The translations under genes were made by a program, and so were the position numbers. DNA of 33,093 bases from positions 1 to 33,093 of the forward strand of contig JASEES010000003.1 in assembly GCA_030019395.1 (NCBI GenBank), read 5' to 3'. How positions within the stretch are numbered: position 1 is the stretch's first letter; each line of letters starts with the position of its first letter. Of the stretch, positions 1,078 to 22,488 are shown one piece after another. A model generated the notes under the pieces. The model saw nothing but the letters and a program-made list of their open reading frames with translations, did no database searches and had not been told where the DNA came from. This stretch comes from Methanolinea sp. (GTDB taxonomy: Archaea > Halobacteriota > Methanomicrobia > Methanomicrobiales > Methanospirillaceae).

Positions 1078-2202
1078 ATGAAGAAATACCTCTATTCCGA
1101 CGAGACCCTCTTCCGCAACGGGGATTTGTTCGAGATAGACTACGTCCCCGAGGAGTTCCATTTCCGCGAATCCCAGATGAAGGACATCGCACTTGCCCTC
1201 CGCCCTGCCCTCCACGGCCGCCGCCCGTTGAACATCGCCCTCCGGGGGCTGCCGGGGACCGGCAAGACGACTGCCGTGAAGCGGATCTTTGCCGAGGTGG
1301 AAGAGACGACGCCCCGCCTCGTCCCTGTCTACGTGAACTGCCAGACGGACACCACGAAGTACGGCATCTTCTCGAGGATCTTTGCCGCCCTGAGCGGCCA
1401 CCCGGCACCGCTGACGGGAATCCCCCTCCGCACGCTGATCGGGAAGGTGGGCCGGACGATGAGCGAGAGGGGCGTGGTCGTCTCGGTCTGCCTGGACGAT
1501 GCCAACTACCTGCTCCCGAACAGGGTCTTAAACGGCGTCCTCTTCTCCATCCTCCGCCTCCACCAGGAATTCCCCGGTGCCCGGGCCGGCGTCATCCTCC
1601 CGATGAGCACCATGGACGTCAAACTCCCGCAGGAACTGGATTCCGGCGTGCTCTCGGTCCTCCAGTTGCGGGAGATCTTCTTTCCGCCCTATAGGGAAGA
1701 GGAGATCGCCGCGATCCTCGGGGAGCGGGTCCGCAGGGGCCTCTACCCGAACGTCGTCTCCGACGCACTCCTCGGGCTCATCGTGGGGCAGACGATGCGG
1801 TCCGGGGACCTGCGGGTCGGGCTCGACCTCATCAGGCAGAGCGCCCTCCTCGCCGAGCGGGACGGGAGGACGGCCATCCGGGAGGACGACGTCCTCGCCG
1901 CGTACGAGGTCTCCCGCTTCGTCCAGCTCTCGGCCTCGGTCCGGGCCCTGACGCCTCCCGAGCGGTCCCTGCTCTACGTCATCGCCGACATGGCGGTCGG
2001 TGCCGGTTCGTACCTTTCGACCGGTGCAGTTTACGATGCTGCAGCAGAGAAGATGGCGATGAGCTATTCCAGTTTCTACGAGAGGCTCCGGAAGTTTGAC
2101 CAGATGCGGCTGATTGAGCTCTCCCATGTGGCCGGGAACGGGAGGACGAGGGAGATTGCGCTCCGGTGGGAGCCGGAGAAGGTGAGGGAAGTGTGCGGGT
2201 AG
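1078..2202 (+). CDS. cdc6: Orc1/Cdc6 family replication initiator
   Basis: This 374-aa protein has the Cdc6 N-terminus (FEIDYVPEEFHFRESQ), a Walker A motif GLPGTGKTTA at about residues 57-66, a Walker-B-like CLDDANYL, and a C-terminal winged-helix region from about residue 280. The length is normal for archaeal Orc1/Cdc6. It would bind origin repeats and load MCM helicase. The Walker B motif reads DD rather than the usual DE, which may lower ATP turnover or mark a divergent paralogue. No Shine-Dalgarno motif precedes the ATG; the TATA element about 30 bases upstream fits a leaderless mRNA. The neighbouring accessory block makes a plasmid- or element-derived paralogue possible. Confidence 0.9.
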   Translation: MKKYLYSDETLFRNGDLFEIDYVPEEFHFRESQMKDIALALRPALHGRRPLNIALRGLPGTGKTTAVKRIFAEVEETTPRLVPVYVNCQTDTTKYGIFSRIFAALSGHPAPLTGIPLRTLIGKVGRTMSERGVVVSVCLDDANYLLPNRVLNGVLFSILRLHQEFPGARAGVILPMSTMDVKLPQELDSGVLSVLQLREIFFPPYREEEIAAILGERVRRGLYPNVVSDALLGLIVGQTMRSGDLRVGLDLIRQSALLAERDGRTAIREDDVLAAYEVSRFVQLSASVRALTPPERSLLYVIADMAVGAGSYLSTGAVYDAAAEKMAMSYSSFYERLRKFDQMRLIELSHVAGNGRTREIALRWEPEKVREVCG

Positions 2203-2348: not shown

Positions 2349-2681
2349 TTGAACCGGATTATCCTCTCATTTCAGGGGGAAAAGAGAAAACCAGGATTCA
2401 AACCTGTCCCGAGAGAAATCCTCGTTTACGTAAAAGAGGCAATAAAAATCCACGGTACGACATGTACAGTTTGCGGCTTCAACTTTGAAAGGAAGCATGG
2501 AAAATTCGGCGAGGGTTACATCGAAATACATCACCTCAAACCACATGCCTCTATAAGGGGGGAACGGGCCGTAGACCCAAAAAGTGACCTGGTACCGCTC
2601 TGTTCAAATTGCCACCGGATGATTCACAAGCCAGATCCGATGCTGACCATCGAAGAATTGAAAAAAGCCATTCACGATTGA
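2349..2681 (+). CDS. Small HNH endonuclease (McrA-like)
   Basis: The product of 110 aa carries a complete HNH/zinc module: CTVCGFNF, then EIHHLKP, then DLVPLCSNCHRMIH, matching the ββα-metal nucleases in McrA-type restriction proteins. Such domains usually follow a DNA-recognition domain; here only about 35 residues precede it, so this may be a stand-alone nuclease or a remnant. The reading frame opens after a stop at 2331-2333 and has no ATG before the motif. TTG at 2349, 12 bases after GGAG at 2333-2336, is the likely start. The DNA is visibly richer in A+T than cdc6, which suggests transfer. A nuclease gene of another fold follows 66 bases downstream. Confidence 0.75.
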   Translation: MNRIILSFQGEKRKPGFKPVPREILVYVKEAIKIHGTTCTVCGFNFERKHGKFGEGYIEIHHLKPHASIRGERAVDPKSDLVPLCSNCHRMIHKPDPMLTIEELKKAIHD

Positions 2682-2747
2682 AACAATTTTTTCCGGCGGG
2701 CACATCAAACCGGTATCTTTACCAAAATATTTGTTCCATGATAATCT

Positions 2748-3794
2748 ATGGCTCACAATGTCAAATTGTGGATGGTATCAAAAGGTAATATTTTAAACGA
2801 GATGCATCGGAAAAAACTCGATTTTGAATCACGGCTTGAAGATTGGATCGAGCAGGATATATCGATCCTGTCAGACGATTACCTCGTTATCGGGCGACAA
2901 GTGCCCACCGACTATGACACTTTTATCGACCTCTTGTGCATTGACAGGAACGGGGACCTCGTCATTATCGAATTGAAGCGGGACAGGACACCGAGGGAAA
3001 CTGTTGCCCAGGTGCTCGATTACGCGAGCTGGGTGCGTAATTTATCAAGGGATGATGTGATTTCCATCGCAAACAGCTATCTGAAAGAAAAAGGTCCCCT
3101 TGAGAATGCATTCTTTCAAAAATTCCAGGAAAATCTCCCCGATGTATTGAATGCCTCCCATTCGATGCTCGTCGTGGCGTCCGATATCGACGCGAGCACG
3201 GACCGCATCGTGCACTATCTCTCGGAAACCCGCGGAGTCGGGATAAATATCGCTGAATTCCAGTATTTCAGGGAAAATAACCAGGCTGAATACATTTCAA
3301 GGGTGTTCCTCATCGATCCGGAGACTGTCTCATCCAATACCAAACGTGGTACAGATTCAAAGAGGAAGCGTTCTCTCACAAGGGAGGAACTCGAAGAAAT
3401 TGCAAAACAAAACGGGGTAAATGAAATCTATTCCACGCTCGTAGAGAATGTGAAGGATTATTTCGAGAGTTCGAGGACAACCCGATCCTCTATTGGATTC
3501 GAAGGAAAAAATATCGGGGAGATTGGAAAGGGTGTGATTTTCAACCTGATTCCTTCGAAAAGTAATTCCGAAACGGGATTGAAATTCCAGGTCTATTCAA
3601 ACCGTTTCTCACAGTATTTCAACTGTACAAAAGAAGAACTGATCAATATCCTGCCCAAGAACATCCACGACTGGGTTTATGAGAGCTCTGACGGGAGTGA
3701 GGACTGGGTGGGATACGAGGGATATTTCAAAACGGATGAAGAAGTGGATACATTTTTGGAGGGGTTCCGAAACCTTGGAGATCGAGAAGAATAA
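2748..3794 (+). CDS. NucS/DUF91-type PD-(D/E)XK nuclease protein
   Basis: The 348-aa protein has at about residues 58-80 the sequence DTFIDLLCIDRNG, then VIIELKRD, giving the D...ExK active site of PD-(D/E)XK nucleases. TVAQVLDYASWV follows, as in DUF91/NucS C-terminal domains. The classical NucS N-terminal DNA-binding domain is absent: the nuclease is N-terminal, and residues 215-348 form a second domain seen in DUF91-containing proteins. Specificity is unknown; DNA repair or defence are both plausible. It follows the HNH gene on the same strand in the same AT-richer DNA. Its stop codon directly abuts the stop of the convergent primase gene, with no space between them. The ATG lacks a Shine-Dalgarno motif, and an AAAATATTTG element sits about 20 bases upstream. 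Confidence 0.75.
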   Translation: MAHNVKLWMVSKGNILNEMHRKKLDFESRLEDWIEQDISILSDDYLVIGRQVPTDYDTFIDLLCIDRNGDLVIIELKRDRTPRETVAQVLDYASWVRNLSRDDVISIANSYLKEKGPLENAFFQKFQENLPDVLNASHSMLVVASDIDASTDRIVHYLSETRGVGINIAEFQYFRENNQAEYISRVFLIDPETVSSNTKRGTDSKRKRSLTREELEEIAKQNGVNEIYSTLVENVKDYFESSRTTRSSIGFEGKNIGEIGKGVIFNLIPSKSNSETGLKFQVYSNRFSQYFNCTKEELINILPKNIHDWVYESSDGSEDWVGYEGYFKTDEEVDTFLEGFRNLGDREE

Positions 3795-6614
3795 TTACAC
3801 CACCCCCCTCTCCCTGTTCCACTCCCTAACCATCCTCCCGTAGCACCCCTCGCACACACCGACCCGTTTCTCCGCACACCAGAAGACCGCCTTTCCCCCG
3901 TTGCAGATGTCGCACCGGCCGAGGTCCGATTGCACCCGCGTGAAGTCACGGTGATCGAGGAGACCGGGCAGGGGGTCCACGCGGAACGGCTTTGTGACCT
4001 TTGCACCATTGATGCACGTTTGCACATCTTTGCACCCGCCGGTGCAAACGTGGGAACCATCCTGCACGTCCGGAACCGTGATCGGGGACTTACCCGCAGG
4101 TTTCGCGGAGACGTTTGCACCTTTTGCAGGAACGCACGGGACGGCAGAACCACTGCCCGGCCCTCCAGTCGTGCTCTGCTCTTCCTGCAAATGGTGCAAA
4201 GAGGGACATGAGGGGGTCTCTCTCCCGGTACCGGAGTCACCGTTTCCCGATCCGGGGCCGGATACAGCCCCTTGTGTATTTGCACCTCCCGGGTGCAAAC
4301 CGGGTGCAAAGGTGCAAATATCGGGCCCCTGACCACCGTCCCCTGCCGTGTCCCCGGCAGCCTCCTCCTCGAGCCAGATCTCCGGCCGGGCCGTCCACTT
4401 CCGGAAAGCCGCTATGTCAAACGAGAAGTAGTGCTCGCGGTGCCTCACCTCCCGCCCGGAGATCTCCCCGCTGACGATCGCGTCGATGTAGCTGACTGCC
4501 GGGCACTTGTCGAGGATACCGGGATAGGACCCGTGGCCGTTCCGGTACCCCTTCAGGAGGCGGTAGGCCTGGTAGTACGAGAGCCCGAGCGCCTCCTGGA
4601 GCTGCCGGATGGAAAAGACCTCAAGGCCCATCTTCGCGATGGTCTCGAGGGCCGCAGCCTCGGTCCGGGTCTGCTTCGTATCCTGCGCCCCGGTCTCGCT
4701 CGAGAGCTCAATAAAGAGCCTGCGGGCGTATGCGAAGTCCTCCCGGTTCGCGACGATGCTCCCGCCGGCGTCCCGTTCCCGCTGGAGGAAAAAGAGCCTC
4801 GCGTGGCACTTGAGCAGGTCAAAGAGCATCCCCGGGTTCCGCCGGTTCCGGGTTGCCGAGAAATGGACCCGCGGGGCGAAGGGGACGCGGACGTGCAGGA
4901 CCTCCTCCTTGATGATCTCCCACATCGCCCGGGCAGCGAGGACGTCGGCGTCTTCCCCGTCCCCGGCCGGCTTTGCCTCGCGGTCCTTCAGGTGCGCAAG
5001 GACCGCTGCGTCCTGGTCGGCCGAATCGTCGATCCAGGCACAGAGCATCCGGTTCATGACCTGGTCGTCCCCGGCATGCTCCACCTTTGCCAGCCACCAG
5101 ACGCATCGCGGGGGAATCGTGCAGACCCGGACCTGCCGGTCGCTCGTCAGCGTCCGGTGCTCGATCGGCTCCCGGAAATTCGCGGTCGCCGCCTTCAGCA
5201 CCTCCTGCAGGTCGTCGGAGAGCCAGACGTCGTCGAAGAGGAGCACGGTTCCCGGCTGCACCGCGTGGTAGTACAGGGCCTTGTCCGAGACCGTTCCCTT
5301 CAGCCTGAACCGGGGCGGCAGCAGGTTGAGCATCGCCCGGCAGGCGTGCGTCTTGCCCTTCCCCGAGTTCCCGGAGATGGCGACGTGCAGGCCCTGCGTG
5401 TTCTCCACCGACTGGGAGGCGATCGAGAGCACGAGGCACTCGGCGACCATGCGGTCCCCGACGTGCTCCCGGGAAAAGACGGAGAGGAGGAACCCGAGCG
5501 GGTCGCCGGACCGCAGGATCTCCTCTGCCCGGGCCCGGGCCTCCGCCTCTGCCGCGGACGGAGGGGGCGGGGCCGCTCCAGCCGCGGGGGACGGCCCGTC
5601 CACCCTCTTCTCCCGCCGGTGCCGCCCGGACCGGTCGCGGAGCTCCTGCCACCGCTGCCTCCCCCCGCCGCAGGAGTCGTGCTTGCAGCCGGCGTACAGG
5701 GCTCCGCTCGGGAACTGGATCGCGAACGCCCCGTCCCGGTGGGCCGACGAGAACGGGCACTCCTCGAGGACAAACAGGGTCCCGCCCTGCCACGGTTTCT
5801 CGGACCGGACCGCGATCCCGTGGGCCGGGAGCCACTCGCGGAGGTCGATGCCCGGACCCTTTGCCGGCCGCCCCCGGCCCGGGTCGGCTTGCGGGAGCAG
5901 CCCGGCGAGACGGCGGAGCAGGCCGGCCGGAACCGCCTGCACCCTGCCGGGGACGGAGAGGAGGCGGGACTGCCGGTGCGGCCGGGAAGCGGTGTTGTCG
6001 CCCTTCTTCGCGGCCGTCCCGTAGAGCTTCCAGATGCGGGCCGCGTTGTAGTTCGCGGCATCGACGGACACGATGCCGTCCGAAAAGAGCGTGTCGAGGA
6101 CCGCAAGGCACGCCTTCACGAGGTCCGCGGACTCCCCGTCGTTGGGAAGGTCGATGCGGTAGAGGAGGTGGGCACCGTTCCCCGAATCGGCGATGACCGG
6201 GTCGGGCCACCCCGCCTCCTGCCCGAGGAACGCGGCAATCTCCCTGGCCCGGGCGAGTGCTGCTTCGTGTTCCGCGTCCGTCGAGGAGACGCCGCTCGGC
6301 CGGACAGGGTCCAGGTCGACCGGGAGCCACCGCCTGCGGAGGACATCGGAATCGCCCGTGGTCGGGTCTTTCCGCCCGATGTCCATCTGGACCCGGTTGG
6401 CCCTCCGCGAGAGGAGGGCAGGGTCGACCTCGTTGAGGGTGACGTACACGCCCCCGACGTCCGGGAGAACGTCGAGGTTTGCGGCCTTTTCCGCGAGGGC
6501 AGCGAAGTCGTCGAAGTACCCGGAATGGACCCCGCGGGCAGAGAGCGCCCGCAGTTCCACGACCCCTCCGCCGGGAAAGAGTGTCGCGAGGGCCTTTATG
6601 ATCTCCCCGGTCAT
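3795..6614 (-). CDS. Plasmid/virus-type primase-helicase fusion
   Basis: This 939-aa protein joins an archaeo-eukaryotic primase-like domain to a P-loop helicase. The primase part shows VDLDP (D100/D102, metal binding), SGNGAHLLY (H149) and a DAANYNAARIWKLYGT segment near 185-200. A Cys/His element follows (C286, H292, C310, C315), as in phage and plasmid primases. Helicase signatures are Walker A SGNSGKGKT (414-422) and Walker B LLFDD (457-461). A winged-helix-like region lies near 655-690. After a low-complexity linker (about 755-870), a C-terminal zinc module has C901, C904, C913, C921 and C924. Such proteins initiate replication of plasmids, viruses or integrated elements. It ends a three-gene operon, and its ATG overlaps the preceding stop by four bases. 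The linker DNA carries iteron-like repeats. Confidence 0.8.
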   Translation of the reverse strand: MTGEIIKALATLFPGGGVVELRALSARGVHSGYFDDFAALAEKAANLDVLPDVGGVYVTLNEVDPALLSRRANRVQMDIGRKDPTTGDSDVLRRRWLPVDLDPVRPSGVSSTDAEHEAALARAREIAAFLGQEAGWPDPVIADSGNGAHLLYRIDLPNDGESADLVKACLAVLDTLFSDGIVSVDAANYNAARIWKLYGTAAKKGDNTASRPHRQSRLLSVPGRVQAVPAGLLRRLAGLLPQADPGRGRPAKGPGIDLREWLPAHGIAVRSEKPWQGGTLFVLEECPFSSAHRDGAFAIQFPSGALYAGCKHDSCGGGRQRWQELRDRSGRHRREKRVDGPSPAAGAAPPPPSAAEAEARARAEEILRSGDPLGFLLSVFSREHVGDRMVAECLVLSIASQSVENTQGLHVAISGNSGKGKTHACRAMLNLLPPRFRLKGTVSDKALYYHAVQPGTVLLFDDVWLSDDLQEVLKAATANFREPIEHRTLTSDRQVRVCTIPPRCVWWLAKVEHAGDDQVMNRMLCAWIDDSADQDAAVLAHLKDREAKPAGDGEDADVLAARAMWEIIKEEVLHVRVPFAPRVHFSATRNRRNPGMLFDLLKCHARLFFLQRERDAGGSIVANREDFAYARRLFIELSSETGAQDTKQTRTEAAALETIAKMGLEVFSIRQLQEALGLSYYQAYRLLKGYRNGHGSYPGILDKCPAVSYIDAIVSGEISGREVRHREHYFSFDIAAFRKWTARPEIWLEEEAAGDTAGDGGQGPDICTFAPGLHPGGANTQGAVSGPGSGNGDSGTGRETPSCPSLHHLQEEQSTTGGPGSGSAVPCVPAKGANVSAKPAGKSPITVPDVQDGSHVCTGGCKDVQTCINGAKVTKPFRVDPLPGLLDHRDFTRVQSDLGRCDICNGGKAVFWCAEKRVGVCEGCYGRMVREWNRERGVV
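4000..4318. repeat. Iteron-like cluster of TTTGCACC/GGTGCAAA octamers inside the primase-helicase gene
   Basis: Exact plus-strand copies of TTTGCACC begin at 4000, 4029, 4114 and 4279. Exact copies of its reverse complement GGTGCAAA begin at 4041, 4193, 4292, 4303 and 4311. TTTGCACA at 4019 is a near copy. Two pairs form inverted repeats with short spacers (4029/4041 and 4279/4292), and 4303/4311 are adjacent direct copies. The copies fall in different reading frames of the gene (for example as CTFAP, LHP and GAN), so protein repetition does not explain them. Nine exact octamers in 319 bases is far above chance (roughly 0.01 expected on both strands). Inferred role: binding sites for an initiator, that is, a replication origin. 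Confidence 0.7.
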
Positions 6615-6973
6615 ACCGTCCCGTCCTGCCAGTCGGGGACGAGGGGGAAGAGCGGGGCCGAGACCGCCTCGCCCCGGGCCACCCGCGAAAAGCTCACGAC
6701 CGGGATGATGAAGTGGCCGGCCCGGGTGTAGAGGAGGACTGCCTTTCCGCCCCGGCTGATGGCCGCGTGGCCCTCGATGGAGACCGGTTCAGCCTCTTTT
6801 CCTCCCCCGGCGGCCGGTGTGTGCCGGTCCCGGATGATCGGGACGACCCTGCAGAAGGCAAGGAGCGTCCGGACTTCCTGTGCCTCGATCCGGTAGGACC
6901 CGCCCCCGGCCTCGATCCGGAGGGAATCGTCCCCGCCCCGTGCGAGGGTGCCGGGTTCAGTCACCGCGGTCAC
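6611..6973 (-). CDS. Unidentified 120-aa protein of the primase-helicase operon
   Basis: I do not recognise the family. The gene is judged real because its stop overlaps the primase-helicase start by four bases (ATGA) and its own start overlaps the preceding small gene by 17 bases. That is the packing expected of a co-translated replication operon. The protein is soluble, with a Gly/Ala-rich centre and β-strand-like segments such as AVLLYTRAGHFIIPVV near residues 78-93. It has no Cys pair, P-loop or evident helix-turn-helix. An accessory replication or copy-control role is inferred only from position. Confidence 0.55.
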   Translation of the reverse strand: MTAVTEPGTLARGGDDSLRIEAGGGSYRIEAQEVRTLLAFCRVVPIIRDRHTPAAGGGKEAEPVSIEGHAAISRGGKAVLLYTRAGHFIIPVVSFSRVARGEAVSAPLFPLVPDWQDGTV

Positions 6974-18526: not shown

Positions 18527-19500
18527 AAAGCGAGTTCCTTTTTGAATTCTTCTTCCAGGTTGTGATTTCTGATGACCACCTTGAGGCTCTGTTTCTTCGT
18601 TCCTTTTCCGCGATATTCACCGAATATAAAGGCAGGGCCGCACTTCACGACACCGAAGGCAACCGCGAGGCGGAAGAGGAGATCCACTGCCCCCGCTGGC
18701 GTGCATTCCCTGACATCGATCGCATGGGGAAGCTCAAAGAGGTGGTAGGCCAGCCCTTCTGCCCTGCAGAGCTCCGCGACGTTTGTGTCGGCGGTAAGGT
18801 GGAGGGTGGTGCAAAACGCGTCCTTCTCGTGCTCCCTCACTGATTTCACGATGAGGAGGTCGTTTTTCTCCTTGTCCGGGCCGCCCGGTTCTATGCCGGG
18901 TATGATCCGCGCCTGGTCCCGTATCTTCTCGAATTCCGCGAGGGCGTTATATGCCGCGATCCGGGACCGCTTTGTCTTCTGGTTGATGAGTTCCTCGAGC
19001 AGGGCACCCTCAAAGGGAGCCATCCGCTTCATCTGGGAGATCGTCTGGGCTGTATACTTCGTGTTCAGGGCACTCTCGATCTCACTTTGGACGATGTCGA
19101 CGAGGATATAGCGGTCTCCGGGAATGCCTCCCCGTGAGGGAAATGCATGGTAGATCATGTTGGTATCCAGGGAGAAGAGCACCTCCTTGTTGAGGAGCGG
19201 AATACTCTTCCTGACCTCCAGGAATTTTTCCATGTTCCGGTAGGAGACTATCCCGGCAGCGAGCATTGACTGCAGCACGTCGTTGTATGACGGCATATCA
19301 TACGCAAACTCTCCGAATGCCGCGATGGCTTCATCAAAGTCTTCCCGTGTGCACATGCCGGACAGGATAAAGCCGGACGCGGTATCCCGCAGCGTCAGGA
19401 TGTCGAAGTCGTACAGGGGATATTTTACCACTACCGGGCTCTTCAGGAGGTTCAGGAGGACCTGAATCCCGGGGATCCCGATGATTGCGTCATCCGCCAT
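18490..19500 (-). CDS. PIN-domain ribonuclease, partner of a CARF-like protein
   Basis: The central part of this 336-aa protein has the four acidic positions of PIN nucleases: LDTNMIYHAF (D112), VQSEIES (E140), NDLLIV (D214) and LTADTN (D238), in the expected order. PIN domains cut RNA in a metal-dependent way. About 100 residues precede the nuclease and may form a helical sensor or dimer part; residues 250-336 form a separate C-terminal region that I do not recognise. The ATG lies 11 bases inside the CARF-like gene, with GAGGG upstream, so the two are translationally coupled. It is larger than VapC toxins (about 130 aa), and no VapB-like antitoxin gene is adjacent. An RNase controlled by the CARF-like partner is the inferred role. 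Confidence 0.75.
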   Translation of the reverse strand: MADDAIIGIPGIQVLLNLLKSPVVVKYPLYDFDILTLRDTASGFILSGMCTREDFDEAIAAFGEFAYDMPSYNDVLQSMLAAGIVSYRNMEKFLEVRKSIPLLNKEVLFSLDTNMIYHAFPSRGGIPGDRYILVDIVQSEIESALNTKYTAQTISQMKRMAPFEGALLEELINQKTKRSRIAAYNALAEFEKIRDQARIIPGIEPGGPDKEKNDLLIVKSVREHEKDAFCTTLHLTADTNVAELCRAEGLAYHLFELPHAIDVRECTPAGAVDLLFRLAVAFGVVKCGPAFIFGEYRGKGTKKQSLKVVIRNHNLEEEFKKELALCRSLSALPIPR

Positions 19501-22067: not shown

Positions 22068-22268
22068 GCATAGTGATACTTGTAAACTATTATAATAACC
22101 CACCCTTCTGGTGAACATGCTCAAACGACAAAAAACCTTTCGGAATTTTGAAAACACCCGGGTGACAGGAGAGGGAGTTACTTTTCAATGTATCAAAAGA
22201 GTATCCCGTTCACAATCAGGCCAGGTGCTGCATCTCTGAGTTCCATTAATGAAAATTGTTGAAAAGAA

Positions 22269-22353
22269 TGCGAGGGGTGGGATTCGAACCCACGGACTCC
22301 TTCGAGAACGGATCTTAAGTCCGCCGGTTTTGGCCAGGCTTGCCTACCCTCGC
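22269..22353 (-). tRNA. tRNA-Leu (anticodon UAA)
   Basis: Read on the minus strand, the 5' strand GCGAGGG pairs with the 3' strand CCCTCGC, followed by discriminator A. The D-arm region is GGCAAGCCTGG; the anticodon loop is CUUAAGA, giving anticodon UAA. A long variable arm (TTCTCGAAGGAG) marks a type II tRNA, and the T-arm is GTGGG, TTCGAAT, CCCAC. CCA is not encoded. No intron is seen. Confidence 0.92.
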
Positions 22354-22488
22354 AGGACTGCTTTTCCCAATAATCTGGTGCCACCGGACAATAAGGCCGT
22401 CGGTGTGCAAAAGGCCGGAACGCTGGCATACGTCCCCTGCCTGTCGGGACGGGATGGAAGGAAAAAAAAACAAGGAACTGCAATCCCC

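Follow-up and report, generated by a model that had tools for sequence, protein, structure and literature searches.

Why would a single gene carry nine copies of one octamer, on both strands, within a short segment of its coding sequence? This question is raised by a primase-helicase gene in a stretch of 33,093 nt from Methanolinea sp. (GCA_030019395.1, contig JASEES010000003.1, positions 1 to 33,093, forward strand), which we analysed as a whole and refer to as the window. Nine exact copies of TTTGCACC/GGTGCAAA lie within window 4000-4318, all at the places and in the two orientations that a first-pass annotation of this DNA had given (Table 1). Judging from sequence, we consider it probable that these octamers serve as iterons of a replication origin, that this origin is overprinted by the linker-coding part of the gene for its initiator, and that the specificities of initiator and origin have coevolved.

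Nine octamers in the linker-coding DNA of a primase-helicase gene

The chance expectation for TTTGCACC is 0.71 occurrences in the whole 33 kb, and the maximum over 100 shuffles was three; the window holds one further copy, its tenth, at 18808. Copies are spread over five of the six frame/strand classes of the gene, which bears out the earlier claim that different reading frames are used. When the linker codons were shuffled, no single octamer reached more than five copies, compared with the nine observed. These shuffles led us to reject both chance and a by-product of coding. Counted over the complete genome (1.81 Mb), a check that the first-pass annotation had proposed, TTTGCACC occurs 103 times as against 37 for the reversed control, and among the matches listed it forms only two clusters, the window array and a group of six copies at C36:1018-1315.

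Searches of Pfam, PHROGs and NCBIfam gave no family match for the protein of 939 residues that the gene encodes, and the PDB contained no sequence relative of note. An AlphaFold2 model built from 82 aligned family members (predicted local distance difference test score, pLDDT, of 82), a fold search and sequence features together place a primase-polymerase (prim-pol) domain, a helicase, a helix-turn-helix and a zinc finger in this single polypeptide. The helicase part resembles MCM proteins in fold (Foldseek, E 1.7e-9); the prim-pol assignment is based on sequence motifs and the published family description, without a library match. Residues 762-877, whose coding DNA contains the array, are predicted to be disordered, consistent with the low-complexity linker described previously. 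Judged by its domain order, the primase-helicase very probably belongs to arCOG07809, a multi-copy methanogen family; the passages of PMC4158269 on arCOG07809/Mpal_2033 describe integrated elements in methanogens with this same order of domains.

Homologous linkers carry octamers of their own in a common layout

Relatives of the window protein are present in 43 of the 61 related genomes searched, with a maximum of 19 matches per genome, some of which are fragments of one gene. A named genome collection yielded 257 relatives, the best 80 of which belong to Methanomicrobiales genera or to bins named only Euryarchaeota. Full-length matches are confined to Methanomicrobiales; helicase-type homologues are present in other archaeal families. 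Measured against codon shuffles, a repeated 7-mer was detected in 62 of 102 homologue linkers at p<=0.01 and in 74 at p<=0.05, whereas control helicase stretches of equal length gave none of 102 and six, respectively. Octamer density amounts to 10.4 per kb in linkers and 0.07 per kb in the remaining gene, with no octamer in 55 kb upstream of these genes.

The octamers differ between members yet align in one register (examples are TTTCAGCA, CTTCAGCA, CTTCCGCA, TTACAGCA, TTGCAGCA, TGACAGCA, TGGCAGCA and TTGCAACA), in which the window octamer reads T-TTGCACC. Copies that share a genome have different octamers in 16 of 20 same-genome pairs. An inspection of orthologous genes, as the first-pass annotation had suggested, thus gave a divided answer: most bear an octamer array at the same layout, but the octamer is each one's own and not TTTGCACC. 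The counter-example envisaged there, a linker protein that is conserved while the repeats are missing, does not apply in that form, since this family has no conserved linker protein, although some full-length members have no clear array. Two members, L014 and L077, have very long linkers with tandem duplication of array segments, and carry 14 and 17 sites.

Despite the differing octamers the arrays share a geometry, in which a cluster spaced by 8-11 bp is followed by intervals of ~84-88, 77-80 and 74-76 bp and then by a second cluster; the spacing string of the window array is ++8 ++11 +-12 -+87 +-78 -+74 +-11 --29. In pairwise linker alignments, octamer sites at matching positions change base in concert. 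Layout alone is weaker evidence than this concerted change, because homologous linkers inherit positions. In many members an AT-rich patch also occupies a set position in the array. When 20 members were anchored on the central site, GC content dipped to ~28-33% some 20-50 bp before it, and the minimum GC of the linker (over 30 bp) was below the control minimum in 99 of 102 members. In many members the 30 bp of lowest GC lie ~40 bp past one site and 46 bp ahead of the next. At about the same position L008, L009, L039 and L043 have a CTCTCT...GTAC-rich, partly palindromic sequence, seemingly in place of the AT-rich patch.

Residues of the winged helix track the octamer bases

If each member has its own octamer, which protein reads it? 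We ranked 745 protein columns by mutual information with the octamer bases over 55 non-redundant members; the octamers were typed in the same data set, making the ranking a fit and not a blind prediction. Column 687 came top for base 1, columns 688 and 689 ranked first and second for base 3, column 692 second for base 5, and column 699 first for base 6. These columns correspond to Y680, Y681, Q682, R685 and N692 of the window protein, the first four of which sit in the recognition helix and the last in the turn after it. Minimal pairs illustrate the relationship. H688Q accompanies a change from TTGCAGCA to TTTCAGCA, K692R a change from CTTCCGCA to CTTCAGCA, and A699T, the sole difference within the compared recognition-helix/turn segment (columns 681-704), a change from TTGCAACA to TTGCAGCA.

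In protein pairs with at least 75% identity elsewhere, those that agree in the residues at columns 687, 688, 692 and 699 share the octamer in 37 of 38 cases; among the pairs that differ there, 5 of 84 do so. For the more distant pairs, only eight in number, entropy-matched control columns never attained the observed contrast. Exceptions to the match between reader and base occur, for example in L029, L108 and L101 at base 5. Since octamer bases track residues of the recognition helix and its following turn, the primase-helicase itself, one of the binders suggested in the first-pass annotation, is most likely the protein that reads the octamers, through its winged helix. The proteins of L007 and L008 are 90% identical outside the winged helix and differ in both winged helix and octamer, a contrast that suggests exchange of a reader-plus-array module.

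A putative origin within its initiator gene, and the alternatives

From the repeats, their layout, the AT-rich patch, the covariation and the integrase/tRNA context described below we infer the following sequence of events. The initiator, comprising prim-pol domain, MCM-like helicase and winged helix, would bind the octamers via its own winged helix; the residues with which the recognition helix begins would set bases 1, 3 and 5, and one in the turn after it would set base 6. Bound at fixed geometry, the array would let the helicase load and open the DNA at the AT-rich patch in a long spacer, which many members possess and the window copy lacks. The prim-pol domain would then prime, and the integrative element would replicate once excised. 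A reader that shares one gene with its sites, and lies next to them, would be inherited and switched along with them, and this joint inheritance would therefore give rise to many mutually distinct initiator-origin pairs.

Covariation with a self-reading protein does not by itself specify replication, and the element's own protein might instead bind the array for autoregulation, partition or the packaging of a satellite virus; Makarova et al. 2014, in the part of PMC4158269 concerned with this family, proposed an integrated satellite virus for arCOG07809. We regard such a purpose as unlikely. Operators would be expected upstream of the family's genes, in the 55 kb that contain no octamer sites, and promoter autoregulation is disfavoured for this reason. 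In the reader protein a primase and an MCM-like helicase are joined to the winged helix, the AT-rich patch stands at a fixed place, and the genes that recur nearby, most of them unannotated, included no identified capsid or terminase gene. That the octamers are read by some host protein, or by either of the small co-operonic proteins linked to the primase-helicase gene, is very unlikely, given that octamer identity follows the winged-helix residues of the primase-helicase, even in a pair that differs at one residue of the compared segment. It is more improbable still that the repeats merely reflect low-complexity coding or local duplication. The linker is indeed disordered, and whole segments are tandemly duplicated in L014 and L077, but the copies lie on both strands and in several frames at numbers above those of codon shuffles, the spaced layout is kept, and the octamers match the reader residues.

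Several observations weigh against an origin read by its own initiator. In tree-aware tests of co-change, base 6 had column 699 in first place (p 6e-4), base 3 had 688 in second (p 6e-3), base 1 had 687 in second and base 5 had 692 in tenth; these tests agree in direction yet are modest, and weak because the changes are few. A simple code, applied to members whose octamer was untyped, predicted it with mixed success, and the motif registers were set by hand. About 28 of the 102 linkers have no repeat at p<=0.05, and some of these are in intact genes (L061, L071). A candidate for the right attachment site (attR) was found for one element only, at a distance of 22.9 kb, and none for most elements. 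The window copy itself has no integrase nearby, and its linker minimum of 43% GC over 30 bp is the joint-highest of the 102, meaning that the AT-rich patch is absent.

A linker relic and the state of the window copy

The window copy may be fixed or decaying, because it lacks both the AT-rich patch and a nearby integrase. It could accordingly be a remnant, domesticated or in decay, with an array that has ceased to work as an origin, a reading that is compatible with an origin function at the level of the family and that we treat as a serious possibility, though not the favoured one. Host-like genes (ABC transporter) lie just upstream, and elsewhere in the genome the linker has a pseudogene-like relic. 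This stand-alone copy at C36:1012-1351 (L037:1012-1351) matches the window linker at 75% identity over 344 bp and retains six octamers; the remaining primase gene is absent, and the junction that links the copy with the 3' end of an hsdS-like gene could be an assembly artefact. Two points speak against decay of the window copy. Its reading frame, zinc ribbon and nine octamers are all intact, and octamer positions are identical to the C36 relic at 54 of 56 bases compared with 203 of 287 elsewhere (Fisher p 7e-6). The C36 copy may represent either a relic or an ectopic origin with a titrating effect.

Arrays in distant homologues

We observed a significant array 3' of the model-matched region, or in the last 810 bases of the gene where homologues matched only in the prim-pol part, in 12 of 21 distant homologues. 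Control regions gave an array in 1 of 21 upstream and in 0 of 21 in the helicase. In the long-tailed homologues L240, L242, L244, L246 and L252 the array lies within the gene, and in those that end soon after the winged helix (L238, L245, L250 and L253) it lies downstream. On balance we lean towards a widespread class of archaeal mobile elements in which the array is fixed relative to the winged-helix codons: if the gene ends early the array is non-coding, and if the frame runs on a disordered linker overprints it. Changing together, reader and sites would then diversify into dozens of initiator-origin pairs that are nearly orthogonal and have a readable code; interference among elements in one host is perhaps the driving force. 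Relatives on viral contigs mostly match in the prim-pol domain only and few have repeats. The clearest is L135, with seven TGTAACG copies near the end of the gene, from which in-gene arrays may extend beyond the Methanomicrobiales family.

Neighbourhood and integrative elements

Both of the small co-operonic proteins claimed in the first-pass annotation have their open reading frames (ORFs) beside the primase-helicase gene on the minus strand (Table 1). The motif SPVPLYLLP of the 59-residue ORF is, by eye, like that of a small upstream protein at 32 homologous loci. Across loci, the genes that recur beside the primase gene encode two small upstream proteins, a tyrosine integrase and an Orc1/Cdc6-like protein, along with cargo, for instance type I restriction genes. 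The tyrosine integrase family (PF00589) is found at 24 homologous loci, at several of which the integrase lies directly 3' of a tRNA gene; neighbourhood clustering placed an Orc1/Cdc6-like gene near the primase gene in 17. The window copy is flanked by HNH and NucS-like nucleases and the Orc1-like gene on one side and by the host-like transporter genes on the other. A search for circular contigs by terminal overlap found none. The earlier notion of a plasmid origin inside its own initiator gene needs to be divided: an origin within the initiator gene is the reading that the sequence best supports, while the elements that carry it are integrative, their tyrosine integrases lying at tRNA genes.

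Elsewhere in the same genome (contig C3), at L202:6614-6814, the 3' end of a tRNA-Ala is recopied within ~90 bases downstream (37 of 40 bases), likely an attachment-site scar upstream of another family member. The window also contains a tRNA-Leu (taa) at 22268-22354 on the minus strand.

Table 1. Features of the window around the octamer array (window coordinates)
Feature	Position	Strand	Remarks
Octamer cluster A	4279..4318		4279(+), 4292(-), 4303(-), 4311(-)
Central octamer	4193..4200	-	
Second spaced octamer	4114..4121	+	
Octamer cluster B	4000..4048		4000(+), 4029(+), 4041(-)
Disordered linker, residues 762-877, coding DNA contains octamer array	3984..4331	-	pLDDT <50; 9/9 octamers inside
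Candidate initiator, 939 aa: prim-pol / MCM-like helicase / winged helix / linker / zinc ribbon	3795..6614	-	Intact ORF
Winged helix, residues 650-732, candidate octamer reader	4419..4667	-	AlphaFold2 model; conserved across family
Recognition helix, residues 680-688 (YYQAYRLLK)	4551..4577	-	Helix from AlphaFold2 model; covariation
C-terminal zinc ribbon (CDIC...CEGC)	3798..3983	-	Cysteines invariant or nearly so in family alignment
Small co-operonic ORF, 120 aa, GTG start, overlapping neighbours	6611..6973	-	No match in Pfam, PHROGs, NCBIfam
Small co-operonic ORF, 59 aa	6957..7136	-	
Orc1/Cdc6-like AAA+ gene	1078..2202	+	Pfam Cdc6_lid and AAA matches
Probable cargo: HNH nuclease 2349-2681, NucS-like nuclease 2748-3794	2349..3794	+	

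Significance and comparison with known systems

Few origins of archaeal mobile elements are known, and the family provides predicted origins for dozens of gene copies and names the residues that would read them. The natural minimal pairs make this protein-DNA specificity testable. Differing octamers in copies that share a genome fit selection against cross-talk, a testable idea, given that ectopic origin copies are known to interfere with phage lambda (PMC4488673). The family illustrates how initiator and origin may switch specificity jointly. It could also supply orthogonal replicons for methanogens, whose genetic tools are few.

One of the closest descriptions is that of arCOG07809/Mpal_2033, which, in the passages of PMC4158269 devoted to it, likewise unites prim-pol, helicase, helix-turn-helix and zinc finger in one protein, with integrases and integration sites, in methanogens. 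Those passages make no mention of iterons, an origin or a specificity code, and they call the helicase superfamily I, whereas the window model resembles MCM. The Sulfolobus plasmid pRN1 encodes ORF904, a prim-pol, helicase and winged-helix protein thought to recognize its own origin (PMC4234260). In contrast to the window array, the pRN1 origin consists of a stem-loop of 100 nt, which follows the gene, can be moved elsewhere and has no identified recognition motif; according to the same part of PMC4158269, the ORF904 family is a different, distantly related one.

In staphylococcal pathogenicity islands (SaPI) and the staphylococcal cassette chromosome mec (SCCmec), which are also integrative elements, a self-loading helicase (Rep, Cch2) binds short iterons beside its own gene, SaPI Rep via its C-terminal domain (PMC7581432). 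There the iterons lie directly downstream of the gene, an arrangement shared by some distant homologues of the window protein, whereas the Methanomicrobiales family has them inside it. For such a position the precedent is phage lambda, whose initiator gene O has the iterons at its middle and encodes the protein that binds them (PMC3985674). The window array similarly sits inside an ORF, between winged helix and zinc ribbon, as a putative working origin. No lambda O match was found for the window protein in Pfam, PHROGs or NCBIfam, making it an analogue and not a member of that family. Where lambda has four iterons of 19 bp and an initiator other than a primase-helicase, the family described here combines short octamers in both orientations, long fixed spacers and an archaeal prim-pol/MCM-like protein.
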